Shown: positions 48,677-64,000 of the stretch, piece after piece
Layout: each line of letters opens with the position of its first letter
Position numbering within the stretch: position 1 is the stretch's first letter
Source of the DNA: Patescibacteria group bacterium
GTDB lineage: Bacteria; Patescibacteriota; Patescibacteriia; 2-12-FULL-60-25
Length of the DNA: 64,000 bases
Reading direction: 5' to 3'
Assembly (NCBI GenBank): GCA_028688515.1
Contig: JAQTXZ010000001.1
Location: 744,001-808,000, forward strand
Position numbers and translations under genes: made by a program
Notes under the pieces: generated by a model
Seen by the model: only the letters and a program-made list of their open reading frames with translations
The model's database searches: none
What the model was told of the DNA's origin: nothing

Positions 48677-48748
48677 GCGGGTATCGTATAGTGGCTATTA
48701 TGCGACCCTTCCAAGGTTGAGAGGCGGGTTCAATTCCCGCTACCCGCT
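48677..48748 (+). tRNA. tRNA-Gly(UCC), integration target
   Basis: Acceptor GCGGGTA/TACCCGC, anticodon loop CTTCCAA (anticodon TCC at 48710-48712), T-arm GCGGGTTCAATTCCCGC. CCA not encoded. Its 3' end (48730-48752) is the first of four copies of the same sequence in the window. Confidence 0.96.
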
Positions 48749-48752
48749 CCAA
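48730..48752 (+). other. Attachment site 1 (att1, within tRNA-Gly)
   Basis: ATTCCCGCTACCCGCTCCAA, preceded by TCA. Copies: 52975-52997 (23/23), 58491-58510 (20/20), 61471-61489 (18 bases identical). Sequence to the right is foreign and GC-rich. A second CCCGCTACC is 94 bases downstream (48830). Confidence 0.85.
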
Positions 48753-48760
48753 TGCTGAAG

Positions 48761-48781
48761 CCGACCACCAGGTCGGTTTTT
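48761..48781 (+). terminator. Terminator of tRNA-Gly, carried by the element
   Basis: CCGACC/GGTCGG stem, 4-base loop, then TTTTT. It lies on the element side of att1. The same terminator type follows att3. Confidence 0.85.
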
Positions 48782-48852
48782 GCGTTGGTTGGGAGCAGGA
48801 CTCCTTTCGGGCTCGGTGACCGCTTTTTTCCCGCTACCTGCCGCGGTGCCCA

Positions 48853-50397
48853 TCAGGTGACCACTTCGCCTTCCAATCGTGCCAGGTGGTCGACATCCGT
48901 TCGCGTCGGCGCCGTGGGGTCTGTCCCAGCAGAAGAGTGCGGCGAGACTTTGTCAGCTGCGCCAAGAGCCGCCAGCTGATCAACCGCCGAGCGGAGCGTT
49001 GAACGCGATACGTGTGAGTAGCGCGCGGTCATTAAGATGGTCGTGTGTCCCAGCAGTTCCTGCACCACCCGGATCGGCACGCCCGCCGCGGTCAGGTTCG
49101 AGGCGAAGGTGTGCCGGAACGTGTGCCAGCCGAAGGGCTTGATACCTGCGTCGCGGCAAATTCGGTACAGGAACTTCTCGGTGGACCCGGGATCCATGAA
49201 GCTATCAACGTGTCGCTGGAAGACGAACGGTCCAGTTCGCGGGAAGGCGCGGAGCGCCCCGACGATAGTTGGGTTCAGAGGGATGTCGCGCATGCGACCC
49301 GTCTTGGTGGACTGGAGAACGCCGCGGGCGGCCGCGCGTCGTATGTGGACCAGCGGTTCGACGGCGTCGAGCTCGAGGTCGTCCCACATGAGCGCGGCGG
49401 CCTCGCCGAAGCGGGCGCCGGTGTGCAGCAGGAACAGCATGAACTTTCGCCAGAAGTCGGTGCCTGCAGCTGCGAGCGCGCGAGTGCTCTCGAAGACCTC
49501 GAACGTCGGGTCCGGCGCGCGAGGCGCGCCCACCCCGGGCGGGACAACCTGCACGCTGATCCACCCGCGACTCACCATGACCTCCGACAAGAATGGAATG
49601 CACCACGCGCCGCGCGCGGGTCGTTTCTGCCCTACGGCGGCATCGTCTGCAGACGCGGGAGCGCGTTGCCCTCGGTCGCCTGGGACTCGGGGCGGATTGT
49701 CGCCTAAGCGATATTGGGCGTCAAGGGAAATGATCTCGGCTTCGGTTGATGTTGTGGGGACGGAATCATGTCCGGTGACTCTTGGCTTCGAGGCTGGAGC
49801 CGGCGGTGAAGTGTCGTCCAACACGACCGGGGTTGTGGGGGTGATAGCCGCAGGCTCGCTGTTGGCGACGGTCTCCGCGTCCGGCGGGACGGTCACGATC
49901 GCTACGGGTCCGGGCACGGTAAGGGGCGTGGCCGGCAGGATTTCTTGAGGAACACAGCTGCCCAGTCGTCGGACTGCTTCCCGGCGCCGCTCGTCGACCA
50001 GGTGAAGGTAACGGCGCGTAGTATTCAAATCGGAGTGCCGGAGCAGGTCCGCGACCGTGGAGAGGTCCGAGCCCATCGTTAGGGCGAGCGTCGCGGTCGT
50101 GTGCCGGAGCGTGTGCGGGGTGATGCGTTTTGCGGTGCCGATCGCGCCTCGCAGCTGCTCGATGAGGCGCTGGCCGGCGGGCTGATGCGTTCCCGGGTAA
50201 CTCGGACAGCGCGTCTCTCCGCTCATGAAGCCGCCGACTTCCCCCTCGTAGAAGGGCACGCTATCGTCAACGCGGCGCTGCGTCCAATCCGTCAACAGAA
50301 GTGCGGCGGTCATCCGGGCGTTCGCCTCGATCCGCGTCGCAAATTCCGGGACGGACATCTCAGGCGAAGACAGGAAAACAGCGATGTCGGCTTTCCT
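48853..50397 (-). CDS. Tyrosine integrase with two catalytic domains
   Basis: 514 residues from MRKADIAVFLSSPEM. Residues ~70-145 hold the second half of one catalytic domain (H95-x2-R98 in PHTLRHT, H121, Y130 in TRRYLH) but lack its first arginine box. A ~170-residue linker follows. Residues ~300-490 hold a second domain with R329 (TGARFGEAA), H425-x2-R428 (WHTFRHT), H451 and Y460 (ARYSHV). The gene points at att1 and ends 100 bases from it, the usual place for a tRNA integrase. It looks like a fusion of two integrases. Confidence 0.8.
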   Translation of the reverse strand, partial: RKADIAVFLSSPEMSVPEFATRIEANARMTAALLLTDWTQRRVDDSVPFYEGEVGGFMSGETRCPSYPGTHQPAGQRLIEQLRGAIGTAKRITPHTLRHTTATLALTMGSDLSTVADLLRHSDLNTTRRYLHLVDERRREAVRRLGSCVPQEILPATPLTVPGPVAIVTVPPDAETVANSEPAAITPTTPVVLDDTSPPAPASKPRVTGHDSVPTTSTEAEIISLDAQYRLGDNPPRVPGDRGQRAPASADDAAVGQKRPARGAWCIPFLSEVMVSRGWISVQVVPPGVGAPRAPDPTFEVFESTRALAAAGTDFWRKFMLFLLHTGARFGEAAALMWDDLELDAVEPLVHIRRAAARGVLQSTKTGRMRDIPLNPTIVGALRAFPRTGPFVFQRHVDSFMDPGSTEKFLYRICRDAGIKPFGWHTFRHTFASNLTAAGVPIRVVQELLGHTTILMTARYSHVSRSTLRSAVDQLAALGAADKVSPHSSAGTDPTAPTRTDVDHLARLEGEVVT

Positions 50398-50653
50398 CAT
50401 CCGAGTCGAACGTGCACACGAGTACATCCATCTCCTCCTTGGTGTCTGCCAATCCACAGCACATCCGCCTGGCAACCTCCCTCAAGACCTCTGACGCGTC
50501 GAGGCCGTCCTTGCTCTTGAAGGCGATGGCGAGATCCACGATCCCCGAGCGAAGCGACGTTCGGATCCCGAGGATGTCTATGCGTTCACGGAGCTGAGCA
50601 AGTAACTCCAGCAAAATGGAGACGGTGCGTCGGGTTGCATTAGAGAATCGCAT
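50360..50653 (-). CDS. Small helical protein upstream of the integrase
   Basis: 97 residues, overlapping the integrase start by 38 bases. ILLELLAQLRERIDILGIRT and LDASEVLREVARRMCCGLAD look like real helices. Unrecognised; might be a regulator of the integrase. Confidence 0.45.
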   Translation of the reverse strand: MRFSNATRRTVSILLELLAQLRERIDILGIRTSLRSGIVDLAIAFKSKDGLDASEVLREVARRMCCGLADTKEEMDVLVCTFDSDEESRHRCFPVFA

Positions 50654-51194
50654 TCAAGTCAATTGCAGCACGGTATTCGCCATGCTGTCAATGGTGGGTG
50701 GTGTTCGCGAGTAGCCGGAGACACGAGCAGCGTGCGCTCCTCGGGAGCTGTTGGCGAGGCCGACCCGCTCGATGCGTCGCTGTTTCAGAGCAACACTGAT
50801 TTCAAATCAATCGCAGCACGTCGGCGGGCATCGGCGAAACTCCGTCTGGTGGAGCCCATTGGAGAAGTCGGTGCATCTCGAAATACAGCGATGAGATCCG
50901 CCGGAAGCTCGAAGCTGAGCGTAGCGCGATTGCGTGCGACGACCGCATCGCGCGGAAGTGAACTGCGAGCACACTGAGATTTAATAGCACCTTGAAATCG
51001 GAGGCTCTACAGGACGCGGCTAGAACGCTCGGGCGGCCGGGATGTAGGCGATGACCACCTCGACCTGGAAAGCCACTCCGCGACATGGAGCTGCTTGACA
51101 GACCCAGGGCACCAGCGCTAGACCTATCTAAGGTGTGGGAGTCAGACTCACGTCCAACGCGCACGGGGCGTGCCTAAGATCGGGTAGACAAGCG
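50654..51194. other. Gene-poor stretch with a direct repeat
   Basis: No convincing gene. TTCAAGTCAATTGCAGCACG (50652) recurs as TTCAAATCAATCGCAGCACG (50800). Confidence 0.35.
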
Positions 51195-52082
51195 ATGACG
51201 CCCATTGAGGCTCCGTACTTTCACTCGGCACCGGTGTCCCCAACGCGGGAGCTGGCGTCCGCACTTGAGCGTCTCAGAGTCCGTTTCGCGACAACAAATC
51301 GCCGGATTCACCATTTAGGAGCCGGCTATCCGCACCCTGAAGTGTCGGACCCCCGCTCCTACATCGCACACAAGGAAGGGAGCTTTCCATTCGGGGCGGA
51401 GGACGGGGACCCGTATCGCATGCCATGGGTTTCGCTTGCCCGAGACATTTACGTCCACGCCTTTGCGATAGGTCGTGTGCCCGTGACCAACAGGCTATAC
51501 CGCGGGTTTGACCCTGCCCATTTATTGCCAGCCAACCTCCTGGAGCAGGTGAACGAAGCAGAACTGCTAGACCACCCCGTGGTGAACGTGAGTTGGTACG
51601 AGGCAGCCCTCTTCACCGAATGGCTTTCACAGGTAATCCCCGGGGTGAGGCTGCCGTCGGAGATTGAGTGGGAGAAGGCTGCTGGCTGGGACAGTGCAAA
51701 GAGCAGGAAGATGCGGTTTCCGTGGGGAGACGAGTGGAGACCGGAGTATGTGAACAGTTGGGAGCGCGGACCGAATCGAACGACGCTTGCGGGCAGTTAC
51801 CTTCAAGGCGCCGCTCCGTGCGGCGCTCTCGACATGGCGGGAAACGTTTGGGAATGGTGTTCGAACTGGTTCATCGAAGGCGATACCCTCGAGCACGCGC
51901 TGGCGGTCGGGGGGCGGTTTCCAGAACTGGAAGACGACGGCACGAACCGCAGGGTAGATCGCGGCGGTGGCTGGTACCACGACGTTGGTTACCCTGCAAC
52001 ACATGTTAGAGCGGGGGACGACCCGGGGGACCGCTTCGCTCATTGCGGATTTCGACTTGCATGTAGTGACATCGTTTCATGA
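51195..52082 (+). CDS. FGE-sulfatase/EgtB-like domain protein
   Basis: 295 residues from MTPIEAPYFHSAP. The FGE fold is clear: YVHAFAIGRVPVTNRLYRGF, VVNVSWYEAALFTEWLSQ, RLPSEIEWEKAAG, FPWGDEW, ALDMAGNVWEWCSNW and HCGFRLAC. The iron- or copper-enzyme residues cannot be assigned by eye. A methyltransferase start follows 18 bases later; FGE-fold and methyltransferase pairs occur in ergothioneine-type pathways, but the DinB half of EgtB is missing. Confidence 0.85.
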   Translation: MTPIEAPYFHSAPVSPTRELASALERLRVRFATTNRRIHHLGAGYPHPEVSDPRSYIAHKEGSFPFGAEDGDPYRMPWVSLARDIYVHAFAIGRVPVTNRLYRGFDPAHLLPANLLEQVNEAELLDHPVVNVSWYEAALFTEWLSQVIPGVRLPSEIEWEKAAGWDSAKSRKMRFPWGDEWRPEYVNSWERGPNRTTLAGSYLQGAAPCGALDMAGNVWEWCSNWFIEGDTLEHALAVGGRFPELEDDGTNRRVDRGGGWYHDVGYPATHVRAGDDPGDRFAHCGFRLACSDIVS

Positions 52083-52100
52083 TCCCGGGAGGAGGATGAT

Positions 52101-52400
52101 ATGCCTGAGTGGGAAGATGTTTATGGCGGATGGGAGGAGTACTACCGGAAGGTGATGTCCGGCGACGCTTGGAGCGGCGAGGCAGAACCCGCCGTGGAAG
52201 CTCTCGTGAAGGGTGCGGGACAGGAGCGGGTTCATGTGGCCGATCTTGGGTGCGGCGAAGGCCGCAATACGATTCCGTGGCTCCGCCGTGAGAGCGCGAA
52301 GCACGACGCGCGCGAGAGCCGCCCGAGGATCACGCTCCGGCCGGAAAACATGCGGTCGTTGCGATGGGGTCACCGAAGACATGGGTGTTACCGGCGGTAG
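52101..52400 (+). pseudogene. Truncated SAM-dependent methyltransferase
   Basis: GGAGGA precedes the ATG. Residues 1-63 look like a class I methyltransferase N-terminus with motif I (VHVADLGCGEGRNT). After WLRRESAKH the sequence becomes Arg-rich and unrelated, and the usual ~200-residue remainder is absent. A deletion near 52295 is the likely cause. Confidence 0.65.
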
Positions 52401-52443
52401 ACGAACGCTGAGCCAACAAAAAAAGACCGCGGCCGTTAGTGGG

Positions 52444-52662
52444 TCACGGGATGCGCAACAGGGACTTGAGAATCGGCCGCGGACGGCAAGTGGTGTCTAC
52501 GCGTGCCTGCACGGCAGCAATGTTCTCTCGCCCGTCGAACACGAGGCAGGTCACGCTTCCTACCCGACGGGCCGTCCACCCGCGTGGCAAGTCGGGGTTC
52601 GGCATGCTCTGGTCAACTGAGATTGTTCCAAGAGTTGCGCTGAGTTGATCGCTGTCACTCAT
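52444..52662 (-). CDS. Small orphan protein
   Basis: 72 residues from MSDSDQLSATLGTISV, with GAGGAGGG four bases before the ATG. Beta-rich middle (GWTARRVGSVTCLVFDGREN). Unrecognised. Confidence 0.4.
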   Translation of the reverse strand: MSDSDQLSATLGTISVDQSMPNPDLPRGWTARRVGSVTCLVFDGRENIAAVQARVDTTCRPRPILKSLLRIP

Positions 52663-52974
52663 CAAGCCCTCCTCAGTCCACAGTATGCACGTCTCGCGCG
52701 CTTCCTGCAACATCGGTTACGCACAGGACGCCAGAGCGGACCGATGCAAAAGCCAACTTCGGCTTCGCCGCGAGCGGTCTTCGACTTGACGCCGAGCGCA
52801 TTGCCATGAATGTGGGATAATGAACGGATCAAGCCCGTCTGTCAACATGCGCCGAAGCTCCCGCCAGGCCGGCCTGATTCGCGTGGTCCGTCACCCAAGC
52901 CGACATCTTCGTGCGCGCCAACCGCCGAAGCGCGCAAGGGGGGGGCAGCGCCGGGCGCGCAGGGGCGCGAGCGG
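52663..52974. other. Gene-poor right end of element segment 1
   Basis: No gene or excisionase seen; a GC-rich stretch leads into att2. Confidence 0.35.
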
Positions 52975-52997
52975 TCAATTCCCGCTACCCGCTCCAA
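52975..52997 (+). other. Attachment site 2 (att2)
   Basis: ATTCCCGCTACCCGCTCCAA, preceded by TCA; 23 bases identical to the tRNA-Gly end. A second CCCGCTACC is 121 bases downstream (53102). The ~200 bases to the right match those right of att4. Confidence 0.85.
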
Positions 52998-53005
52998 AAG
53001 AGAGT

Positions 53006-53029
53006 CCTCCCTGTATGGGGAGGTCTTTT
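53006..53029 (+). terminator. Terminator following att2
   Basis: CCTCCC...GGGGAGG hairpin then TCTTTT. The same type follows att4. Confidence 0.8.
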
Positions 53030-53167
53030 GTATTCCGTGCTCGTACGGTTGAGTCGGGATTTACTGGGCGGAAACGTGGTCACCAGGTCTCGGGAACGCT
53101 GCCCGCTACCGGTATGAGGGAGTATGAAAATGCACTGGAACGACGGTCTGGGGACCAGGTTTGGTGG

Positions 53168-54355
53168 CTAACGGGGTGTACTGGGTGGACGAGGTGGACG
53201 AGCTTGTTCGCTCGTGGGGTCGTCGATCTTGCGGCGCTCGAGGGCCGTGGCCGGGAAATCGGAGCCGGTTGCCACCTCCTGTAGGAGGCAGTTCAGACCA
53301 TGCGTTGCTGGTGTGTGCGCGAAGTAGAAGAGCGAGGTCTGCGGATGGCCCTCGACATAGGCACGTCCTGACTCCAAAAGCACTTGCTGCATGTAGGGGT
53401 TCGCGACGTACGGGTTCTTCAGAACCACGAGTCTCTGCCCGTCGGGCAAGTTGCGCTTGCGGTGAAGCGTTTCCGTGACGAGCCGACGAACCAAGTCCGC
53501 ACGCATCTCGTCAGAGAACGTCACCGCCACCTGTGTACCGCCTGTGAACTTGAGATCCCGCATCTCGGCGTGCAACCCAACCCCGAAAGCGTCGTCGCGC
53601 ATCCCAACGCTCCCACTCAGCTCCATAGGGACCCGTGTGCACACCAACTCCGCTTCGATCTCCCCAGTTCCGCACTTGCCAGCCAGCGCGTCGGGAGCAA
53701 CCGGAATCCGACTCGGAATCACCACGCCGCTGACGAGTTTCTTGAAGTCCTCGACATTAAGCTTGATCGTTGCCTTATCGGGTGTCTTCTTCACCCGGAT
53801 CACTTTGAGCTCAACGTTCAGCAACCAGCCTGTTGCAATCGGGCAATGGTCCGACAAGACGGACATCAGACCATCAAGGAGAGCGATGATCTCGGGCTGC
53901 TTCGACGTGATCTCTACGGGAATCGGACCTTCACCCGCTCGGAGTTCACCGTCAGGCCCGGGGCGAAGCAACGGAAGCAGGTGATAGTTGCGCATCTCGG
54001 CGGCCAGAAGACGGTGGGCGACTAGCTCGTCAAGAACCCTGCCTGCAACATCCGGCTGACCGTTCAACATCCGGTTGAGCGCGTCACGCACGCCCACCTC
54101 GTCTTTCCTGACTACGGCGTACCCATGGAGGTACTCGAGCGTGAACAGGAGTTCTTCAAGACGTCCGAGCATCACCTCCTTGATAGGTGCTTTGCTGGGA
54201 GGGTCGTCAGGTCTTTGCTCGAACTCCTCGATGCGGAATGCAGAGGTCGCGATCCGGTTGACTTGCTTGGTTGTCACGAAGTCGGCGTCAACAAGGTGCC
54301 TCAACCGCCTGAGGTTATCGTCGTCCGCTACGTGGGTGATTGCTCTTGAGAACAT
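53168..54355 (-). CDS. Orphan protein of the Shedu/MBL segment
   Basis: 395 residues, soluble, no family recognised. Mixed alpha-beta; an N-terminal helical half (VADDDNLRRLRHLVDADFVT) suggests DNA binding or oligomerisation, the C-terminal half is beta-rich (TGGTQVAVTFSDEM). Its last ~15 residues are coded by the element-end repeat. It ends the leftward operon with the MBL-fold and membrane genes. Confidence 0.7.
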   Translation of the reverse strand: MFSRAITHVADDDNLRRLRHLVDADFVTTKQVNRIATSAFRIEEFEQRPDDPPSKAPIKEVMLGRLEELLFTLEYLHGYAVVRKDEVGVRDALNRMLNGQPDVAGRVLDELVAHRLLAAEMRNYHLLPLLRPGPDGELRAGEGPIPVEITSKQPEIIALLDGLMSVLSDHCPIATGWLLNVELKVIRVKKTPDKATIKLNVEDFKKLVSGVVIPSRIPVAPDALAGKCGTGEIEAELVCTRVPMELSGSVGMRDDAFGVGLHAEMRDLKFTGGTQVAVTFSDEMRADLVRRLVTETLHRKRNLPDGQRLVVLKNPYVANPYMQQVLLESGRAYVEGHPQTSLFYFAHTPATHGLNCLLQEVATGSDFPATALERRKIDDPTSEQARPPRPPSTPR

Positions 54356-54385
54356 CAGTCTTATGTTTCCGACTAAGCTATAGAG

Positions 54386-55366
54386 CTAGCGTGGCAACAG
54401 CGCGCATCTCCAAGCCTTCAGCGACTCATGGTATTTCGCAGCGTTGCCGTTGACGGTCTCGGCGAAGGTCTTGTTGGTGCAATATACCCACGCGCCGAAC
54501 TCATCGTCACTATCGAAGTCGACGATAATCGATCCGGCCTGATTGTTTGTGATTTTCGGGAGGTTTCTCCTGGACCACTCCCTATATGCCAGATGCTCGG
54601 ACTTCGCGTTACCGAAGAGTGTGAGCTTGGGCTGCAGCATATCAAGGAATGTGAAGTCGCAGTCGGAATGGCGACCGTGGTGCGGGGCTATCAGCAAGTC
54701 GATGTTCGTCACGCTGTCGGCGTGATTCTCGAGGATGTGTGCCCAGGTATCATCGTGACAGTCGCCCGGAAAAAGAATCTTCCTCCCGCCGGTCTTGTAC
54801 AGTATGACATGTGACGCGTCGTTCCACTCGTCGTTCTCGTTCGCTGCCTTCACTAGATCTGGAGTCGGTGACAGGACATGCAGACCATCGTCTTTCCAGA
54901 AGTCGCACCGAGGCTGTCCGGAGTAGTACACCAGACGCTTAGGATCGGCTGTTTTGGTTCGCAAAGACTTATAGAGATCCCAGTCTTCCCGTCGGTAGCG
55001 TGATGCCTCCCAGTTGTCGCCGCTCTTGTCGCACGTGTTGTCGGTGTCCCAGAAGTTGATCGGGCCGAATTCCGCGAACAGGTCTGCGATGCCATCCAGG
55101 TGATCCATATCAGGATGCGACAGAATGAATCGAAAGATTGCGTCGATGCTACGGTCGCGCATGTACGCTATGGGGTTGTCCGGGTCTTCTTTTTGATTGA
55201 AGTTTCCCTGTGCCGCCGCGAACTTGCGGGCGAGTGACTCCGTGAGACGTTCTGACTCAGACACTAACCGCGCGTTACACACGTCAATTACCGTAACGCG
55301 ACCGCTGTTGTGCTGGATGATTGAGCAGTCCCCCTCGCGGACGTTGAGATAGTGAACGATTGCCAT
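54386..55366 (-). CDS. Metallo-beta-lactamase-fold hydrolase (ComEC-like)
   Basis: 326 residues. Metal-binding pattern HPDMDHLDG at 84-92 (HxDxDH, with Asp in place of the second His), KILFPGDCHDD and LLIAPHHGRHSD. The layout matches the beta-lactamase domain of ComEC/Rec2-type proteins, without the membrane part; relatives occur as stand-alone proteins in defence islands. Two bases from the membrane gene and 30 from the 395-residue gene. Confidence 0.85.
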   Translation of the reverse strand: MAIVHYLNVREGDCSIIQHNSGRVTVIDVCNARLVSESERLTESLARKFAAAQGNFNQKEDPDNPIAYMRDRSIDAIFRFILSHPDMDHLDGIADLFAEFGPINFWDTDNTCDKSGDNWEASRYRREDWDLYKSLRTKTADPKRLVYYSGQPRCDFWKDDGLHVLSPTPDLVKAANENDEWNDASHVILYKTGGRKILFPGDCHDDTWAHILENHADSVTNIDLLIAPHHGRHSDCDFTFLDMLQPKLTLFGNAKSEHLAYREWSRRNLPKITNNQAGSIIVDFDSDDEFGAWVYCTNKTFAETVNGNAAKYHESLKAWRCALLPR

Positions 55367-55368
55367 AC

Positions 55369-56049
55369 TTACGCTACTCTCTGCTTAGTTCCGTCGGTTT
55401 CCGACGAGCTGGGCATTGCGGATGTCAACGCGAGCACCGTGTTTACGAATCGCACGCCGCGCTCCGCGGCGGCGCGAGAGAAAGTGAATGTGAGCGCGGA
55501 AAAGGCCGCTGTCGACCAAAGCGATCCGTTGCGGGCGGCAGGGTTCACAATTGCGCAGATGACCGAAGCGACTGCCAGCAGAAGGGCGAACCACGTCAGG
55601 TCACGGAAGAGGAGGTAGTCGAGCTGCGCACCATCGACGCGCGGGTCGTGCTCGACATCCTTGTATAGACGGTACCACGCAGCGTTTTGATCTGCCGGGC
55701 CGAGTGGGAATGAACCGCCCATGCGCTCCTTGAGTCGTGTCCTATCGATCCGCGTGTCTCTTGCAAGACCCGCTCGTTGAAATGCGCGCGACCCCGGCAG
55801 GGGATGCTTCCAACGCCAGAAGACCAGGCGAGCCTTGAGGTCATGCCCGGGAACGGAATCAAGCGCGGCGGCGATGATGGCGACCAGCAGCAAAGCGCTC
55901 GGCGCCAGTGCCTTGTTCCACGCCTCAGGGGTAAACGTTGTAAGCGTTGTGGGCATGCCGAGGTTGACCCAGGCAAGCACCATCGCGCCGGCAAGCATGA
56001 AGCCCCTAGTCCCGACTCTTGCTCGACTCTTGAGATATTTCTTGCTCAT
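55369..56049 (-). CDS. Four-helix membrane protein
   Basis: 226 residues. Helices at ~16-35, ~47-65, ~150-168 and ~172-190 flank a ~80-residue cytoplasmic loop. Layout recalls membrane effectors next to sensor proteins in defence loci; no family is recognised. Ends 2 bases before the MBL gene. Confidence 0.65.
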   Translation of the reverse strand: MSKKYLKSRARVGTRGFMLAGAMVLAWVNLGMPTTLTTFTPEAWNKALAPSALLLVAIIAAALDSVPGHDLKARLVFWRWKHPLPGSRAFQRAGLARDTRIDRTRLKERMGGSFPLGPADQNAAWYRLYKDVEHDPRVDGAQLDYLLFRDLTWFALLLAVASVICAIVNPAARNGSLWSTAAFSALTFTFSRAAAERGVRFVNTVLALTSAMPSSSETDGTKQRVA

Positions 56050-56235
56050 ACACAATTTCTGCAACTATGCCAGCATCTCTCTGCGCCGGCAAGGTTTGGC
56101 TCCGAGCGTTCTTCTCCTGCGAGACCGCGCGACACCGATGGCAGAGCGGCCGCCGCTTTTCGCGGCGACCTGTACGCGATGCAGACGTTCTGGCACATCT
56201 CGCAGGGTGGGCATCTTCGGCGCGAAGCCGTCAAC

Positions 56236-57657
56236 TTATCCGTATGGCGCGTCATCTCTCGTCTCGAGTAGGCGACCCGTGTCTTCGCCAGGCTCGTTGT
56301 CCGTCTGGGGTCCAGCGTCGTCGGGCGGAGTGGACTCTGCTACTGCGCCACCTCCGGGGGACGTTCCGAGCAAGCGTTCCAGATTCTTGACGTTCGCTTC
56401 TGCGCGGTGAGCGATAAGGTCGTAGGGGACGACCTCGATTCGGTGCAAAGATAGGTTGAGCAGCTCCAGCGCGCGTTTCGCATGCACGGATAGGGTACTC
56501 GCCCTACCGACGACGATGATAAGACGGGAGTTGCGTGCGTGCTTCAATCCGTACAGTCCCAGGCTCGTATCGGATGCGCCATCGAGCGAATCACGGTATA
56601 GCAACGCTTGGGGAATTGCATGTGATAGCGCCGAACCCAGGCGAAAGCGCGATGGCGACGGCGGCACTCCGTCATCGCCCATCGGTGGGGCCTCTATGAT
56701 CACTTCATTGGGTCCCTTTAGCTCGAGAATGTCCTGATGCCCGTCGTACCTCTCTAGAATGAAGTCCAGCGCGCCTCTAGGGACTGACGCCTTCGGTCGT
56801 ACGCGCAGGTAGTCGAGGCCCAGTAGCCAAGGGTTCTCTTCCAAGAAGTGCTGTAGGTCCGTTTCAGTGCTCGCAGGATAGTTCAGCAGCGCAGTATACG
56901 CCGCAGCGGTCGCGCGCACGTCGGCGATACGGTCCGCGAGTTTGTCCCCGAGTGATCTTGCAGAGGCAATTCGTCCGGATGGGGTGTCCGCAATTGAATC
57001 GAGCAGTGCCCCAAGCTGTGAAGGGTCCTGGATCCTGCCGATCCGACGTACCAGCATGTCGATGGTCGCCGGGTCGAGAGCATCCAGTGCCTCCAATACA
57101 GTGGCGATCGACGCCGGTTCCCGGGCGTCGGGTGCGGCGGTGGAACCATCCGCGTGTTCTACGAGCACCCGCAACGAGTTGAGCCGTTCGTCATTCCCCG
57201 CAATCCAAGTTCTGATAGCGTCAATGTCTAGTCCGCTTTGAACGACCTCGCGTCTAAGCTCCTTGTCTTCCTCGAGAGCCTGTCGAATATCTGGCCGGGT
57301 AATGCACAATCCGCCAGTGAAGTACGTCGAGGCGGCGTCTGACCCGTGTTGCTGAAGGTATGCGCGAATTCGTACCGGGAGAACGTAGTGCGTGTCCGTC
57401 GTGAATCCGACCTCGCGCGCCTCGTCGCGAATGGTCAGCAAGAGCGCCGGCTTCCTACCGTCAGGACAATCCGACCTCACCCGGCTAGCCAACGATTTGC
57501 AATTACGAAAAGCTGTCCGTCCTGTAGGGAAGACATCCTTCCAGCTGAAATCGTGGTAGACCTCGATGTCCTGGAGAAGCTTGCGGCCTCTTCTGAAACG
57601 AAGTCCCGCCGGGAATTCGTCAAACACTCTTCCAGTTAAGCGCACTTTTCGCCCCAC
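56236..57657 (-). CDS. sduA: Shedu-type nuclease (DUF4263/SduA C-terminal domain)
   Basis: 473 residues. Residues ~262-440 form the Shedu nuclease: ETDLQHFLEENPWLLG (265-280), ALDFILERYDG (296-306) and LELKGPNE (311-318), a PD-(D/E)xK core with D298, E312 and K314. The N-terminal ~250 residues are an unshared sensor-like region. Shedu proteins are anti-phage nucleases. First gene of the segment-2 cargo. Confidence 0.85.
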   Translation of the reverse strand: MGRKVRLTGRVFDEFPAGLRFRRGRKLLQDIEVYHDFSWKDVFPTGRTAFRNCKSLASRVRSDCPDGRKPALLLTIRDEAREVGFTTDTHYVLPVRIRAYLQQHGSDAASTYFTGGLCITRPDIRQALEEDKELRREVVQSGLDIDAIRTWIAGNDERLNSLRVLVEHADGSTAAPDAREPASIATVLEALDALDPATIDMLVRRIGRIQDPSQLGALLDSIADTPSGRIASARSLGDKLADRIADVRATAAAYTALLNYPASTETDLQHFLEENPWLLGLDYLRVRPKASVPRGALDFILERYDGHQDILELKGPNEVIIEAPPMGDDGVPPSPSRFRLGSALSHAIPQALLYRDSLDGASDTSLGLYGLKHARNSRLIIVVGRASTLSVHAKRALELLNLSLHRIEVVPYDLIAHRAEANVKNLERLLGTSPGGGAVAESTPPDDAGPQTDNEPGEDTGRLLETRDDAPYG

Positions 57658-57885
57658 GGCAAGCGAGCTGGAGGCCCATGTGCCGCGAATCCGATCGCAC
57701 GGTCAAGCTTGGGCAGCTCCGCCACCGCCTCCCGCATCGACTTGTCGGCAACGTGCGCGTAGCGGCACGTCATGGCGATGGTCGACGATGCCGATCGAGA
57801 GGCCGCGCTGAATGCGCACGCGGGGTGCTGGTCCGTCGAGCTCGCCCGGAGTAGCGGAAGTCGACCCACCATTCGTCGTTGCGGT
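57636..57885 (-). pseudogene. Tyrosine integrase C-terminal remnant
   Basis: A minus-strand frame has STIAMTCRYAHVADKSMREA, the tyrosine-nucleophile region, then KLDRAIGFAA. The rest of the catalytic domain is gone; a second frame has DFRYSGRARR. It lies directly downstream of the excisionase, where an intact int would sit. Confidence 0.65.
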
Positions 57886-58118
57886 CAGACCTTCTCGCCG
57901 ATGCCATAGAGCTGGGGAATTCGTGGGACGGGGGCGACGCGGCAGCGAGCGAGGAACGAGTCGAGGTCAGCTTCGCGAACGCGCACCAGGCGACCGATGC
58001 GGAAGTGCGGGACGTCGCCGCGCGCAAGCAGGGCGTAGACGCCGGTTCGAGTGATGTTGAGACGACGGGCGACGTCCGTGGCGGTGAGCAGACCCGTGGA
58101 GCGAATAACAGTTTGCAT
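57885..58118 (-). CDS. Excisionase-like helix-turn-helix protein
   Basis: 77 residues: STGLLTATDVARRLNITRTG then VPHFRIGRLVRVREADLDSF, an intact HTH_17/Xis fold. A damaged copy is at 61040-61103. Transcribed away from att3. Confidence 0.82.
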   Translation of the reverse strand: MQTVIRSTGLLTATDVARRLNITRTGVYALLARGDVPHFRIGRLVRVREADLDSFLARCRVAPVPRIPQLYGIGEKV

Positions 58119-58490
58119 ATAGATTGTAGAGATAGGAATCAGGCTCCTCCTTCCTCCTCATCTCGCGCGGGTGGCGCGCGACTTGACGGCGAGCGCCTCG
58201 TGCGGTGAAATGTCGGCATCGGATGCATAGTGCCGCGTACATTAACACCAATAGCGCCCCTGAAAAGGGACGCTAACGGTCATCGCTGTTTCAAGATGCC
58301 GCCCTCGCAAGGGGGGTGCTCTCATCTCGAAACCACGGTGACCGTTTCGGTGGCTGTAATGTTGCGCACGAGGCGGGACGCGGAATGACTGGCCAGACGA
58401 TAGCCTTGGCTGAAGGCGGCTCTGCTGCGCACAATCAGTACATCCTTGATCGGGCTTGTACACCCTAGTCGGAGCGCCGCGTCTTGTTCG
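58119..58490. repeat. Element right end, copy 1
   Basis: Together with the start of the xis gene, this ~430-base block is repeated at 61040-61470. Shared strings include GTGCCGCGTACATTAACACC and TTGGCTGAAGG. It probably holds the xis promoter and integrase/Xis binding sites. Confidence 0.75.
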
Positions 58491-58510
58491 ATTCCCGCTA
58501 CCCGCTCCAA
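58491..58510 (+). other. Attachment site 3 (att3)
   Basis: ATTCCCGCTACCCGCTCCAA, 20 identical bases, continued by TGC as at att1. A second CCCGCTACC is 94 bases downstream (58588), as at att1. Terminator CCGAC/GTCGG-TTTTT at 58519-58539. Confidence 0.85.
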
Positions 58511-58690
58511 TGCAAGAACCGACCATCGTGTCGGTTTTTGTGTTGGCTGCGAGCAGGGCTCGATTCGGGCTCGGTGACCGCTTTCTTCCCGCTACCTTCC
58601 GCGGTGGCCGATGGGTGACCACTTCGGCTTCGAAGCTCGGCAAGCGTCCGTCACACGTTCACGTCGGTGCCACTTGCGTTACGTCCCGGG
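58511..58690 (-). pseudogene. Copy of the integrase-side element end, with int 3' remnant
   Basis: Homologous to 48753-48930: both carry GCTCGGTGACCGCTTT and then GTGACCACTTCG, the int stop region. Here only the last ~25 integrase codons remain and are frameshifted, joined to transposase sequence. Confidence 0.65.
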
Positions 58691-59065
58691 AGCCGGCGGG
58701 AGAGCACCTTCTTTCGTGGCATCGGGGCCTGCGAGTCTGTCGACGACCGTGCGCAGCCGCGGCTGGCTGCGCGGACCGTGGCCTTTCTGCTGCTTGGGCT
58801 CCTTGTCCGCCGGTGGCTCCCCGTCCTGTCCAGGACGCCGCTCCGAACTCTGGCCGAACAGCATCTTGTTTCGGACGGCCAGCTGCTGCTCGAGCTCTGC
58901 GAGTCGCAGCCGCAGCTGCGCCTGGTCATCGCCCTTGCCCTGCGCTTCCAACAGCTTGCGTTGGAGGTCGAGGACCATCGCGACCAGACGCTGGTTTTCC
59001 TTCTCGAGGATGAGCGCCGCCTTGCGCAGGATCTCGGGGTCTTTTTCCTCTTTGAGGCGAAGCAC
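58679..59065 (-). pseudogene. IS66-family transposase fragment
   Basis: 128 residues with a leucine-zipper region (LRLRLAELEQQLAVRNKMLF) then GQSSERRPGQD, the N-terminal signature of IS66 TnpC. The zinc finger and DDE domain are missing. It interrupts the integrase remnant. Confidence 0.7.
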
Positions 59066-59117
59066 GTCCCCTTGGACGCGGCGGGGCGGCGTTAATTCAA
59101 CGGCCGTCGAAAAAAAG

Positions 59118-59852
59118 TCAGGCTGCGGTGGCCCGGCCGCCGAACACGAACGGGGCCGGACTCAGGGCGAGCTTGCCCACGAACTCGCTGCCTTCGAGCA
59201 GAAGCGCCAGCTCGCTCATGGTCAGAGCCTCCGAAACTGTCTCGATGTCCTCGTCCCGGTAGGGTTCTTCGCCACTCGACCCTCGGATATCGACCGCCCT
59301 GACGCACCCAGTCCCTAAGCCCGCGAACGTTTCGTACAGCAGCTGGTACAGCCCGCTGTTTCGCGACACAATGAGGGGTACCTCGGCAGCGATCGCCTCC
59401 CAGCCTGCGAGCCCAAATCCCTCGTGCACCGATAGCATGAGGGCGACACTACGTTCCGAGAGATGTCTCAGTAGCCCCCGGTAATCGTCAAGAAAAGGTG
59501 CGCCAATGACGTTCACGAATCTCTCAGCGTGCCCCTCGGCCAGGCGAAGCAGATCGATGGCTTCCTGTTCAGAGTTCCCTGCAGAAAGCCCAATGACGTA
59601 CATAACAGGATCCTGCCCGAAGAGCCGACTGTTCTCCTTCAGGGCGTGACCGAATCCAGCCACGGCGAGGCGAGCCAATTTGACCCTGTCGTTGCTGGGG
59701 TCTAACCTTCCGAAGGTGATTGCAGAAAAATTGCTCGGCGAGACCGGACCACCCTGGATCTCGGCCAAACCCGGTACCACCTGAACCGCGGAAGGGCGAC
59801 CGCTTACGCGCCGCATTCCAAACGAACTCCCTAGTTGCACCCTGACCAGCAA
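59118..59852 (-). CDS. Glycosyltransferase family 4, C-terminal half
   Basis: About 244 residues. ITFGRLDPSNDRVKLARLAV, YVIGLSAGN and the donor-binding motif SVHEGFGLAGWEAIAAEVPL are GT-B. The acceptor-binding N-terminal half is missing in this frame; the preceding reading frame (59569-61038) codes unrelated protein, so this is a truncated or fused gene. Confidence 0.55.
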   Translation of the reverse strand: MLVRVQLGSSFGMRRVSGRPSAVQVVPGLAEIQGGPVSPSNFSAITFGRLDPSNDRVKLARLAVAGFGHALKENSRLFGQDPVMYVIGLSAGNSEQEAIDLLRLAEGHAERFVNVIGAPFLDDYRGLLRHLSERSVALMLSVHEGFGLAGWEAIAAEVPLIVSRNSGLYQLLYETFAGLGTGCVRAVDIRGSSGEEPYRDEDIETVSEALTMSELALLLEGSEFVGKLALSPAPFVFGGRATAA

Positions 59853-61038
59853 CGCACGAAGCCACCGCCAGTTGTTTCAGGCAGAGAGCCACTTCCTCGC
59901 GAGTATACCCGTGTGACACAAGGTGACCTGATACTTCTGGCATCTTGGCCCTTCGGGATGGCATGCCGGCCAGAAGGTAGAGCGTTCTCAGTACGATCGG
60001 ACAAGTTGTGTGGGTTCCTAGCGCAAAGATGTTTGGAATCGGGAAGCCCGCCCCGTACGCGTGCGCGGACGATAGGAGCGTTTCCGCCGCGAAGCGTCGC
60101 TCGCCACGTGGAAACACAAGGTGTTCGGTTACGGTTCGTGGTATCGTTGTGTCGCGATCTCGGGGGATTCCAATGTGGTGAGCGACCGGGCGCGGTTTCA
60201 ACTGGCGCCGGAGTTGCTGGCGTATCCATTGTGCTAATTCCGCCAACGTTTCGCCCGCTAGACGTGGTTCACCACCCAATTCTCGTGTCAACGCAATCGA
60301 CAGGTCCTTGTCCAGGGCGTCAATAATCTGATTGGCGAGATCCAGCTGGTCCGCTCTGGGTGCTGGCTCGGTGACGATTGCTCCAGAAGAGTTGCCCAAC
60401 GGCTGACCGTCGTCTCTGATATCCCGTCTGATTTCTTCCAGCATCTGCCCCGTGACGGAGCGCAAGAGAGACTGCCTGACCGAGAGACCGACGGGGTCTT
60501 CCTTCGGGTCAGCGTGCACGAGCGTGTTCTTGACTAGACCGACAAGCGCGTTGCAGATGCGAGTGGTCGCCGTGCTCTGAACGCCCGCTGCCGGAGCGCC
60601 TTCAGAGTCAATGCGACCGAGAGTCCGGATCTGACTCGAGAATCCTCCGCCTAGCGCGGCCCCAAGTTCCTCAAGCACGTGGCGCGCAGCGCCTTGTTGG
60701 AAAGCGATCCGGAAATCAGCCGGAAGGGGTCGAGTGGCAAACAAACCATCCCTAGCGTACGCGATGCACCATTGCGCCGCGAGCAAGTATGCGCGCCGGA
60801 TGTCTGTCCCGGCGAGCGCGCGCAACATGTGTCGGAACTCTCCCTCTGAGTCGATCGTATGAAGCCATAACGCCCGTAGCGGAGCCAAGGCGCTTTCACG
60901 CTCAGTGGGATCCCTGGGCAGTTCGTCGAGTCCGTCAAGGCCGAGGAGGGCTCCCGTCACCGTCGTGAAGACTGCGTCGACCGGGTCCATCGACTGGAAG
61001 TCGAACAGTGAAAATCGAGACCGCGTCTCGAAATGCAA
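59569..61038 (-). CDS. Unrecognised protein, truncated at both ends
   Basis: Up to 489 residues, but beyond about residue 395 the frame runs over the glycosyltransferase and is probably not native. LVSHGYTREEVALCLKQLAV looks like a winged helix at the true C-terminus, as in large NTPase regulators. The N-terminus is joined directly to a broken xis, so the start shown may not be original. Confidence 0.5.
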   Translation of the reverse strand: MHFETRSRFSLFDFQSMDPVDAVFTTVTGALLGLDGLDELPRDPTERESALAPLRALWLHTIDSEGEFRHMLRALAGTDIRRAYLLAAQWCIAYARDGLFATRPLPADFRIAFQQGAARHVLEELGAALGGGFSSQIRTLGRIDSEGAPAAGVQSTATTRICNALVGLVKNTLVHADPKEDPVGLSVRQSLLRSVTGQMLEEIRRDIRDDGQPLGNSSGAIVTEPAPRADQLDLANQIIDALDKDLSIALTRELGGEPRLAGETLAELAQWIRQQLRRQLKPRPVAHHIGIPRDRDTTIPRTVTEHLVFPRGERRFAAETLLSSAHAYGAGFPIPNIFALGTHTTCPIVLRTLYLLAGMPSRRAKMPEVSGHLVSHGYTREEVALCLKQLAVASCVAGQGATREFVWNAARKRSPFRGSGGTGFGRDPGWSGLAEQFFCNHLRKVRPQQRQGQIGSPRRGWIRSRPEGEQSALRAGSCYVRHWAFCREL

Positions 61039-61039
61039 C

Positions 61040-61103
61040 GCCGTGCTCGGCGGGCGACGTCGGCGGCGGTGAGCAGGCCCGTGGAATGAATAGAAGTTTG
61101 CAT
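61040..61103 (-). pseudogene. Excisionase remnant
   Basis: From ATG at 61103 the frame reads MQTSIHSTGLLTAADVARRA, matching the first 20 residues of the 57885-58118 protein, then leaves the family. Confidence 0.75.
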
Positions 61104-61470
61104 ATAGTTGTAGAGATAGGAATCAGGCTCCTCCTTCGTCCTTGGGCGTGCGCGCGGGTGGCGCACGACTTGACGGCGATCGCCTCGTGCGGTGAAATGT
61201 CGATATCGGATGCATAGTGCCGCGTACATTAACACCAATAGCGCAGGACGCTCGCGGCGAGCGGTGTTTCAAGATGCCGCCCTCGCGAAGGGAGGGTGCT
61301 CTCATCTCGAAACCGTGGTGACCGCTTCGGTGGCTGTAATGTTGCGCACGAGACAGGACGCGGACTGACTGGCCAGACGATGGCCTTGGCTGAAGGCCGC
61401 TCTGCTGCGTACAATCAGTACGTCTGCGTCGTGCTCGATCGGGCACGTCGACCTGCCCGGGCAAGGTCGA
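61104..61470. repeat. Element right end, copy 2
   Basis: Near-identical to 58119-58490 over most of its length, with a few indels. No gene. Confidence 0.75.
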
Positions 61471-61489
61471 CTCCCGCTACCCGCTCCAA
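61471..61489 (+). other. Attachment site 4 (att4)
   Basis: TCCCGCTACCCGCTCCAA (18 identical bases). A second CCCGCTACC is 121 bases downstream (61594), as at att2. Terminator CCTCCCC/GGGGAGG then TCCTTTT at 61498-61522. Confidence 0.82.
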
Positions 61490-61725
61490 GAAAGAGTCCT
61501 CCCCGTATGGGGAGGTCCTTTTGTATTCCGTCGTCGTGCGTTTCTGTCGACCGTTGAGCTGGAATCGCGCGGTCACCAGCGCCGGGAATCATCCCCGCTA
61601 CCAGTATGAAGAAGCATGAAGATCCCCTGGAACGACGGTCTGGGGACCAAGCTGGGTGGCCAACGGGGTGTACTGGGTGGACGAAACTGAACACTCTACA
61701 CGGTATTCCGGCGTATCCTGCGAAG
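61490..61725. repeat. Element left end, second type
   Basis: Shares ~200 bases with 52998-53200 (both include CTGGAACGACGGTCTGGGGA and GGGGTGTACTGGGTGGACGA). Confidence 0.7.
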
Positions 61726-62988
61726 CTACGTCGGCCCCGAGGTTCGCGTGCCTCCCAACAGTCCTGCTTGTTGTGCCGCAATGTACGGATGATCGTGCTT
61801 GAATTCCTCCTGGTAGATTTCGCGAAAAGTCTTGCCGCTGAAGTATTCAAGAACGAGCTCGTTGCCTCGGAAGAAGGAAGTGATGATCTCCATCCACGCA
61901 TCGTCATCAAGGGTGGGTCCGGCTTCCGCGTTCGGGACATCTATTCTGAACAACTTCACCTTGTCGCCCGCCCAGACCTTGGCACGCGTGTGGTCAGGGG
62001 CTTGAGCGTAACGCTCCGCGTACAGGGTTGAGTCGTACACCTTTATGGCGCCGTCTAGGTGGGTGAAATGGTGGCTCTCGATGTCCCGAATTGAATGCAC
62101 GAATCGGCAGATTACTGGGCGATCGCCCTCCTCTTCCCTCGGAACCGGAAGCTCCTCCACCACAAAGGTCTTCAGACTTCCGTCCAGCGTCCAGCTGAAC
62201 TCGGTGCGAAGGCCTGCCCTGTCGAAGGGCGACGTGTCGTATACTCGTTCGTGGAGCGTTGTCCCGACTTGGCGCGGGTCATCCACCGCCTCGCGACGGA
62301 ACGGAGCGCCGAACCATCGATCGAGTTCCATGACCGGCCTGAGAACGCCCTTCGGACAGATACGGAAGTGGTCGATCGCGATCGACACCTCCAAGCCTGC
62401 GGCCCTGCAATCCCACAGCATCTTCAATAGTCCGTAGTGGACACGGTTGGCGTAACCGCGACGGAGTCCAGGATGGACGTGGATGTCGTGGGCCTTGTAC
62501 CCCACCCACGCGTGCCCGGGCGTGACGCCGCCACGCACAGGAAGGAGGGAGTCGCGTACAGTGAGCGCCTTTTCCAATTCGGGATACATCGCTAGCACCC
62601 TACTACCCGGCGGCACCCCCGGAACAAGATAGATCGAGAGGTCGCAGAACCTTTGGTTGAGGTATGCTGCGATGCCTGCGTGCGCAAGTTGTTCAGCCAG
62701 CGACAGCTGCAGGATTCTCTCCCGAGCGCGTTCCGCCAGTACCCCAAGGCCGTTCCACCGCCCGAGGTGATCGGCGAGGGAGGTCAGCTCCGCCTGTGGC
62801 AGCGTAGCTAGGTGTGTAACCCATAGGGACACGGCGGCGTCGTACTGAGCTTGTCGGAATGGACTGTCCCCCAGAACGTATTCGTAGCGAAAAAAGATCG
62901 GCGCTTCGTCACGATCGCGATGGTATTCAATTATAGGGTCGAGCAAGTCTGCCAAACCCTGGGGTGGAGCGATTTCAGTCATAGGCAT
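61726..62988 (-). CDS. Orphan protein of element segment 4
   Basis: 420 residues, soluble, no family recognised. Conserved-looking patches: HAWVGYKAHDIHVHPGLRRG, SHHFTHLDGAIKVYDSTLY and FFRGNELVLEYFSGKTFREI. Histidine-rich patches might bind metal. It is 85 bases downstream of the next gene, so the two likely act together. Confidence 0.7.
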   Translation of the reverse strand: MPMTEIAPPQGLADLLDPIIEYHRDRDEAPIFFRYEYVLGDSPFRQAQYDAAVSLWVTHLATLPQAELTSLADHLGRWNGLGVLAERARERILQLSLAEQLAHAGIAAYLNQRFCDLSIYLVPGVPPGSRVLAMYPELEKALTVRDSLLPVRGGVTPGHAWVGYKAHDIHVHPGLRRGYANRVHYGLLKMLWDCRAAGLEVSIAIDHFRICPKGVLRPVMELDRWFGAPFRREAVDDPRQVGTTLHERVYDTSPFDRAGLRTEFSWTLDGSLKTFVVEELPVPREEEGDRPVICRFVHSIRDIESHHFTHLDGAIKVYDSTLYAERYAQAPDHTRAKVWAGDKVKLFRIDVPNAEAGPTLDDDAWMEIITSFFRGNELVLEYFSGKTFREIYQEEFKHDHPYIAAQQAGLLGGTRTSGPT

Positions 62989-63073
62989 GTGTAATGCGGT
63001 GTTCAGTGTTCAAGAAGTGCCGCTCTAGGGGCGTTCCTGCCCTCTCTTTCGTCGCTGGCCATCGTGCGCGCCG

Positions 63074-64000
63074 TCATTCGATGCTTCCTTCACCAGGTGC
63101 CGGCGCGCCGGTATGGGCCGGCATGTAGTGTGCCGAAAGGGCGCCTAACATGTCGGTTAGCCGCTTGAGGATTCCTTCGAAGACGGCGCCCGGTTCACGG
63201 TCCGGTATTCCAAAACGCTCCGCGACTTCGTCGTACCGATGCCCCTTGCGATGGGCTACCCCGCTCGAGCGGAGGTCTTGCAGATCGCGAAGCAGCTTTA
63301 GGTCCGCCGCCCGTGCCGGATACTGATTTGCTTCATGGTAACGGTCGAGCTTGGCGAGCGACTTTTCATCCTTTGGCCCGGCGGGAAGCAGGCGGCTGAT
63401 CTCGGCCACGTTGATCGAATCCACCAATAACTTCGTGAGTGCCAGCACCTGTTGTTCGAACTCGGTGGCGTCCTTGGTCACGGGGACATGTAGTCCCCTA
63501 AAGTAGTGCTCATCGCCACTCAAGAGGGGGAGGAAGAGAGGCCATCCATGTTGCGTGACCCAGTCATCTTGGAACCTGACCAACGCCCGGACGAATATCA
63601 GGTCTGCGCTCGTCGGCTCGGATGGCTCTGCGAGGAAGGATCGCTTCCATTCAACTTCACTGACGCCGCCTTCAGGAGCCACGTTGTGGTGTAGCCAGTG
63701 CAGTTGCTCCTCGTAGCTGAGCGTCTCGCCCAGGTCACCCAGGAACGCAACCACATGCGTTTCGTGGTTGTTATCGATTCGCAGCATCCAGAGATCGCCG
63801 CAGAAGAGAGCGCCGTCAACTACTCGGTACTTCGCCGTTTGATCGTAGTACTTCTTCAGCACCTCGCGCTGGAAGAAGACCGGTGTCAAGTAATGCGGTG
63901 CGCGCGGATTCTTGCCGAAGTAGTTGGCGAGTCGAGCAGGGTCACTGGTGTACCGAAGCTCCTTCCCCTCGCTGTCGCGCGCAATGATGAACTCGCAGTA
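63074..64000 (-). CDS. Orphan protein, N-terminus beyond the window
   Basis: The frame is open to the window edge: reading in from 64000 gives CEFIIARDSEGKELRYTSDP then ARLANYFGKNPRAPHYLTPV, so the TTG at 63889 is not the start. About 309 residues are visible. FFQREVLKKYYDQTAKYRVV and LWMLRIDNNHETHVVAFLGD recur in the style of large defence-island proteins, but no family is recognised. Confidence 0.7.
   Translation of the reverse strand, partial: YCEFIIARDSEGKELRYTSDPARLANYFGKNPRAPHYLTPVFFQREVLKKYYDQTAKYRVVDGALFCGDLWMLRIDNNHETHVVAFLGDLGETLSYEEQLHWLHHNVAPEGGVSEVEWKRSFLAEPSEPTSADLIFVRALVRFQDDWVTQHGWPLFLPLLSGDEHYFRGLHVPVTKDATEFEQQVLALTKLLVDSINVAEISRLLPAGPKDEKSLAKLDRYHEANQYPARAADLKLLRDLQDLRSSGVAHRKGHRYDEVAERFGIPDREPGAVFEGILKRLTDMLGALSAHYMPAHTGAPAPGEGSIE

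Follow-up and report, generated by a model that had tools for sequence, protein, structure and literature searches.

A Patescibacteria chromosome with a probable tandem accretion array of small integrative elements specific for tRNA-Gly

The question raised by this locus is why the 3′ end of a single tRNA gene recurs several times in the same orientation, with blocks of GC-rich DNA between the copies, in a chromosome of the Patescibacteria, or candidate phyla radiation (CPR). The whole stretch of DNA analysed, hereafter the window, comprises 64,000 nucleotides of a Patescibacteria group bacterium (GenBank assembly GCA_028688515.1, contig JAQTXZ010000001.1, here C4:744001-808000), the genome of which is 1.29 Mb in size, lies on four contigs and is 99% complete; window-equivalent positions are used for features past the window end. 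We consider it highly probable that small integrative elements with a specificity for tRNA-Gly, designated A to D, have accreted in tandem at this locus, which begins at a tRNA-Gly(UCC) gene, a fifth element of the family (E) being present at a second tRNA-Gly gene on contig C2.

The 22 bases at the 3′ end of the tRNA-Gly(UCC) gene, TCAATTCCCGCTACCCGCTCCA, are found in the gene itself (48730-48751) and again, always on the + strand, at 52975-52996 (exact), 58488-58509 (one mismatch) and 61467-61488 (two mismatches), with a fifth, exact copy past the window end at C4:810497-810518 (window-equivalent 66497-66518). The exact block common to the tRNA gene and the outermost copy extends to 24 bp, GTTCAATTCCCGCTACCCGCTCCA, and the five 24-bp copies are referred to as attachment (att) cores S1 to S5 (Table 1). 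About 3e-4 matches with two or fewer mismatches would be expected by chance genome-wide on both strands, and a reversed-pattern control gave none. When the core was counted as an 18-mer with at most two mismatches, there were eight copies in this genome, three in tRNA genes and five in addition to these, and one to five (mostly two or three, roughly one per tRNA-Gly gene) in each of the other 40 genomes of the same family. Base composition follows the same boundaries, the G+C content being about 48% to the left of the tRNA gene, 59-63% in every segment and lower again past the fifth copy, so that the composition switches coincide with the first and last cores. A first-pass annotation, made by a model from the window alone, had described four copies of the tRNA 3′ end; all four are real, with starts given to within four bases, but the copies number five and bound four elements, and the inventory lacked the fifth copy, element D (mostly past the window and the only one with an intact integrase) and the occupied tRNA-Gly gene on C2.

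Such a large step in G+C content might also be produced by an error of assembly or binning in which a GC-rich contaminant was joined at repeated 22-mers, as might foreign-looking cargo such as a MopE-repeat protein, and the four-contig assembly was considered without reads. We regard an artefact of this kind as extremely unlikely, since the outer borders at two loci coincide exactly with tRNA-Gly cores, the native terminators are met again on the far side, a related element is present at tRNA-Gly(GCC) in a same-genus genome, and GC-rich islands with 22-bp tRNA-His or tRNA-Ala repeats are found in two further genomes of the family. The assembly join at 48.75 kb that the first-pass annotation had named as one danger to its interpretation was likewise not seen, the composition boundaries coinciding with att copies.

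Evidence that the array was inserted into a previously intact locus comes from its flanks. The tRNA terminator native to the chromosome, CAUAAAAACAGCUC...GAGCUGUUUUUAUG, now lies 17.7 kb downstream, where it directly follows S5 as the strong hairpin CAUAAAAACAGCUCCACAAGAGCUGUUUUUAUG (fold z -7.5); near-identical hairpins directly follow the unoccupied tRNA-Gly(CCC) gene on contig C3 and the last core of element E, which is 4623 bp long and GC-rich and begins at tRNA-Gly(GCC) on C2. Joining the flanks of each occupied locus gave, in both cases, a continuous alignment to the native C3 locus, extending about 100 bp past the tRNA. Furthermore, empty UCC sites are present in three same-genus genomes (G001, G002 and G004; one site is interrupted by a run of N), in which a tRNA-Phe/tRNA-Ile block lies about 100-120 bp after tRNA-Gly(UCC), and in the genome studied here the same block lies beyond the island. 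The locus thus combines an intact tRNA gene at one end, a fragment of it in the same orientation at the other, an integrase and an empty site in relatives, the features by which tRNA-integrated genomic islands are recognized; the comparison with relatives was one that the first-pass annotation had itself proposed. A doubled core in G002 was also considered as an element and was rejected, as a run of N separates two copies of the same sequence. The earlier picture of accretion at one tRNA gene holds for the UCC array but has to be widened to tRNA-Gly(GCC), which holds element E.

Comparison of the ends of the five elements gives more detail of how the array was assembled. There are two unrelated types of left end, type I in A, C and E and type II in B and D, so that the order in the array is I-II-I-II, and a right end of 440-670 bp is common to B, C, D and E, with about 80-84% likeness among B, C/D and E. 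A terminator-like hairpin immediately follows the core at every left end, and each insertion therefore supplies the tRNA gene with a new terminator. The likeness of the right ends, and the identity of those of C and D over 418 bp, could be read as the outcome of duplicating one element in tandem, with later divergence and replacement of cargo by homologous recombination and with no repeated site-specific insertion. This appears quite improbable to us, given that the cargo and left ends of neighbouring elements are unrelated, that the differences between C and D are confined to the core and that two relatives, E at another tRNA gene and an element of G001 in another species, are independent single insertions, which for these two speaks directly against duplication. 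One large island split by internal deletions was set aside on the same evidence, cargo and left ends being unrelated between neighbours.

Between C and D, the right ends differ at three positions, all of which lie within a 6-bp stretch of the core (P about 3e-4 if placement were random). Because the two right ends differ only in the core, S4 looks like D's own attP-like site, consisting of the right arm, a core reading GGTCGACT... and the type II left arm, the chromosomal tRNA core being found in S5. To judge from these sequences, D most likely inserted twice or as a dimer, after which the first copy lost everything except its right end, now the closing end of C. The position of the differences suggests strand exchange at or upstream of the variable T-loop bases. 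The repeated insertion at the tRNA gene postulated in the first-pass annotation thus stands, but serial insertion alone does not account for the agreement of the C and D right ends over 418 bp or for the missing family right end of A; insertion of a dimer or repeated insertion, deletion and core exchange must therefore be added. The first T-loop position is G in S2 and S4, which precede type II ends, and T in all cores at tRNA genes; with five elements, a link between this base and the type of left end is a lead only. The same two G-bearing sites, the alternation of left ends and the lack in A of a right end of its own would also be consistent with two composite units, A+B (9.8 kb) and C+D (8.0 kb), each having a type I left end and a family right end, in which S2 and S4 were made by type II insertion into the distal site of a resident type I element. 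We think this possible but rather unlikely: the family right end of C is complete and immediately precedes S4, a terminator comes after the full-length cores S2 and S4 as it does at the other left ends, and the pattern concerns two sites only.

An intact tyrosine integrase (369 aa) together with an HTH_17 excisionase is found only in D, both genes lying past the window. The catalytic set R-K-H-R-H-Y of this integrase is complete, with R207, K243, H303, R306, H329 and Y338 invariant in the alignment. The other elements contain remnants: in A, a C-terminal piece (48958-49563) that matches D integrase residues 155-358 at 44% (tblastn) and a second C-terminal piece at 49963-50130; in B, three pieces that match residues 8-36, 220-239 and 331-356 and so reflect two internal deletions; in C, the first 13 excisionase codons alone (61065-61103); and in E, a broken excisionase and no integrase. 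The integrase, excisionase and remnants reported between the copies by the first-pass annotation were accordingly recovered with Pfam and tblastn. A, B, C and E share the trait of cis-mobilizable elements (CIMEs) in that their cores are kept and an intact integrase has been lost, B retaining its excisionase. No relaxase, coupling protein or other transfer gene was detected among the proteins of A-E scanned with Pfam, and a PHROG scan of seven proteins gave matches only for the D integrase and the B excisionase. Nor is the locus an integron, the integron-integrase model scoring 53.8 bits against a cut-off of 265 and the sites being tRNA 3′ ends.

The arms on either side of the cores contain a recurrent motif, GGTGACC, which we propose marks integrase arm sites. 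In type I left ends its offsets, +64 and +105, are the same in A, C and E; it also occurs in type II left ends (Table 1), at -171 in the right ends of C, D and E, and next to tRNA-His and tRNA-Ala in two large islands found elsewhere in the family. Our current working hypothesis is that a lambda-type integrase of this family carries out recombination between the core of an element and either the tRNA 3′ end or any displaced copy of it, with GGTGACC as its arm sites. An incoming element would restore the tRNA 3′ end and bring a new terminator, so that the host tRNA would be expected to stay functional, and integrase-dead units would persist as CIME-like passengers that could still be moved in trans by the D integrase, D being one potential helper for them. 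It is conceivable, though unlikely when all its parts are taken together, that the locus is a cassette-like system in which tiny integrase-less elements are collected and moved in trans by the resident D integrase. Each element would then comprise a terminator, the common right arm and no more than a few defence genes, in some cases a single one. Type I elements would have a tRNA-restoring core and land on tRNA genes; type II elements, with a non-restoring core in which the first T-loop position is G, would be able to persist on displaced copies only, and the array would therefore grow by alternation of the two types.

An array of this type with defence cargo in a CPR genome, as the first-pass annotation had envisaged, is supported by the empty sites, the displaced terminator, the related left-end types, the shared right end and a named patescibacterial relative belonging to the same family. 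When interpreting the locus as a tandem accretion array, it is important that the observations which weigh against this interpretation are also considered. It was derived from a consensus assembly alone, and no excision, circular form or transfer was observed. Element A has no family right end and is either decayed or a different kind of element, and the conservation of GGTGACC within one end type is partly plain homology. Both tRNA-Gly loci (window 48677 and C2:54345) are locally inverted relative to the flanking genes of same-genus genomes, and other rearrangements must therefore have occurred too. Finally, about 3.1 kb between S5 and tRNA-Phe (C4:810519-813640), which include a DUF3800 gene, are also absent from the same-genus empty sites; no sixth core was found in this stretch, the best match having 9 mismatches in 23 positions.

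The recognizable cargo is mainly made up of predicted defence or conflict genes, several of the elements probably bearing genes that act against phages, although where matches are weak their E-values indicate candidate functions only (Table 1). Element B carries a gene that can be assigned to Shedu by its predicted SduA C-terminal nuclease domain, and the two overlapping frames in C look like one frameshifted conflict gene. The cargo of E is an M23/MopE-repeat protein (C2:54534-57899). A single-sequence fold of the 420-aa protein of D was uninformative (pLDDT 32.5), and PDB searches with the second D protein and the Shedu protein returned nothing useful.

Table 1. Coordinates of the tRNA-Gly array, its candidate functional sites and related islands (window positions unless a contig is named)
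Feature	Position	Strand	Details
tRNA-Gly(UCC), occupied target	48677..48751	+	3′ 24 bp = S1; ARAGORN, site table
att core S1, tRNA/A junction	48728..48751	+	GTTCAATTCCCGCTACCCGCTCCA
att core S2, A/B junction	52973..52996	+	GGTCAATTCCCGCTACCCGCTCCA
att core S3, B/C junction	58486..58509	+	GTTCGATTCCCGCTACCCGCTCCA
att core S4, C/D junction	61465..61488	+	GGTCGACTCCCGCTACCCGCTCCA; attP-like, between D-type right and left arms
att core S5, past window	C4:810495-810518		
Element A	48752..52996		4245 bp, 62.6% G+C; type I left end, no family right end
Element B	52997..58509		5513 bp, 59.2% G+C; type II left end, family right end
Element C	58510..61488		2979 bp, 61.5% G+C; type I left end, family right end
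Element D	61489..64000, on to window-equivalent 66518		5030 bp in total, 60.5% G+C; type II left end
Family right end of B	58063..58509		Also in C, D, E and same-genus element
Family right end of C	61048..61488		418 bp before the core the same as in D
Terminator hairpin, type I left end of A	48755..48785	+	Fold z -4.5
Terminator hairpin, type II left end of B	53001..53030	+	
Terminator hairpin, type I left end of C	58513..58543	+	
Terminator hairpin, type II left end of D	61490..61522	+	
GGTGACC (two), type I left arm of A	48815-48821, 48856-48862 (span 48815..48862)	+	Candidate arm sites
GGTGACC, type II left arm of B	53078..53084	-	Candidate arm site; offset +82 (D: +83), inverse orientation
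GGTGACC, right arm of B	58337..58343	+	Candidate arm site; -172 from end
A, integrase remnants	48853..50475	-	One ORF (open reading frame) without N-terminal domains; Pfam PF00589 in two stretches, tblastn
B, integrase remnants	57705..57907	-	Three short pieces
B, excisionase	57885..58118	-	HTH_17, intact, 77 aa; PF12728 1.5e-13, PHROG excisionase
D, integrase, intact	C4:808834-809943	-	
A, FGE-sulfatase (SUMF1-like) domain protein	51135..52082	+	Open frame; PF03781 2.6e-36
B, 395-aa protein	53168..54355	-	No family match
B, MBL-fold protein	54386..55366	-	PADLOC PDC-M48B (candidate defence family), E=1.8e-30; weak Pfam Lactamase_B_2
B, 231-aa protein with hydrophobic stretches	55369..56064	-	No family match
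B, Shedu SduA C-terminal nuclease domain protein	56236..57657	-	PF14082 2.7e-9, above cut-off; PADLOC SduA 6.1e-14
C, two overlapping frames	59118..61038	-	489-aa ORF and GT4-conflict fragment (model 166-342 of 385); PF20706 3.4e-31
D, 420-aa protein	61726..62988	-	No family match
D, second gene	63074..64000, on past window (C4:807074 to about 808768)	-	No family match
Large tRNA-His island	G021 C3:4369-78754		
Large tRNA-Ala island	G037 C1:6989-88373		

The distribution of the family was examined at several levels. Among 381 genomes of the class, the family right end occurs only in the source species, the species of G001 and Ess09-17. The G001 element, at tRNA-Gly(GCC), is 1444 bp long with 61% G+C, a type I-like terminator, an excisionase remnant and no integrase, and its right end is 74-77% identical to those of B and E over about 190-230 bp. 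Integrase matches at E<=1e-50 were found in 6 of 380 genomes sampled across the phylum, the source genome included. The nearest integrases, at 49% and 42-43%, belong to JAJYXM01 (FK3.bin42) and JAVHLR01 (Patescibacteria Ess09-17) of the same family, where each lies at the end of a single GC-rich island; the two islands measure about 81 and 74 kb and have as their borders exact 22-bp repeats of the tRNA-Ala and tRNA-His 3′ ends, respectively. The integrases of D, A and these two islands form one clade (100/100 support). The large islands encode defence-type genes, namely CBASS-type SMODS and SAVED proteins, a Schlafen AlbA_2 protein and a NERD-kinase protein which, by its domain order, we take to be PglW-like, together with ParA, HerA/TraG-like ATPases, RadC and a PD-(D/E)XK nuclease; the ATPase/nuclease module is conserved. 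Since these related, defence-bearing islands have D-like integrases, the small tRNA-Gly elements probably represent minor relatives, most of them non-autonomous, of a family of GC-rich tRNA islands. In viral contigs, the integrase alone, the Shedu protein and the right-end pattern were all without a match, and alignment of the integrase revealed relatives of only 27%; phage and plasmid records yielded only integrases of about 30% identity or less.

Some further observations were made in these genomes. Cysteine-rich MopE-motif proteins, a cargo type shared with element E, are also encoded in the G037 island (L158:3504-5267) and just outside the G021 island (L147:607-1740). Core-flanked inserts of about 140-200 bp, each with a terminator, lie behind tRNA-Gly genes at G037 C1:536158-536374 and 1214302-1214484 and at G033 C2:105387-105544, and may be microCIME-like scars or minimal elements. 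The source genome has a second, more distant integrase (C4:693954-694973) near tRNA-Met, G002 having a relative of it likewise beside tRNA-Met, and a 12-kb segment of low G+C content (0.31-0.41) at C2:76000-88000 is a candidate separate island.

Published discussion (PMC12455944) portrays CPR/Patescibacteria genomes as largely devoid of CRISPR-Cas and of other classical defences, and genomic islands that carry defence genes have already been reported in them (PMC12455944; PMC12259885). A partial literature search found no description of tRNA-anchored stacked elements in Patescibacteria, and none was found of the large tRNA-His and tRNA-Ala islands. The locus therefore shows a known mode of accretion to be operating in streamlined Patescibacteria also, a phylum in which it was previously unmapped, and offers a concrete route by which small genomes may gain and lose defence genes, with exact ends, a core, an integrase and candidate arm sites that make the route testable by an integrase assay.

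Several known systems resemble the array. The ssrA islands of Dehalococcoides stand in tandem behind one RNA gene, each bounded by a copy of about 20 bp of its 3′ end, and about half lack an integration module and were proposed to be cis-mobilizable (PMC3146451); the array shares the tandem arrangement, the 3′-end repeats and the many integrase-less members, but in Dehalococcoides the enzyme is a serine recombinase, the target a tmRNA gene and the cargo reductive dehalogenases, as against a tyrosine recombinase, tRNA-Gly, units of 3-5.5 kb and defence-type cargo here. Streptococcal CIMEs are similarly decayed elements with att sites and no recombination genes, stacked with a possible mobilizer, yet they derive from integrative and conjugative or integrative and mobilizable elements (PMC7563491), whereas the Pfam scan of A-E detected no conjugation or mobilization gene. 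The island fGI-2 of Ca. Methylopumilus shares a streamlined genome and the recurring last 20 bp of a tRNA gene (PMC10872708), although there the gene is tRNA-Lys and the phylum another; the comparison made here covers the repeats. Tycheposons, as described in the same report (PMC10872708), are likewise tRNA-flanked and cargo-carrying with a tyrosine recombinase. Finally, tRNA-anchored islands in tandem were catalogued by Islander, which requires an integrase for each member and lists 125 tandems of at least two and four of at least three among 3919 islands (PMC4383910); in contrast to that rule, all units here have cores, and D alone has an intact integrase.

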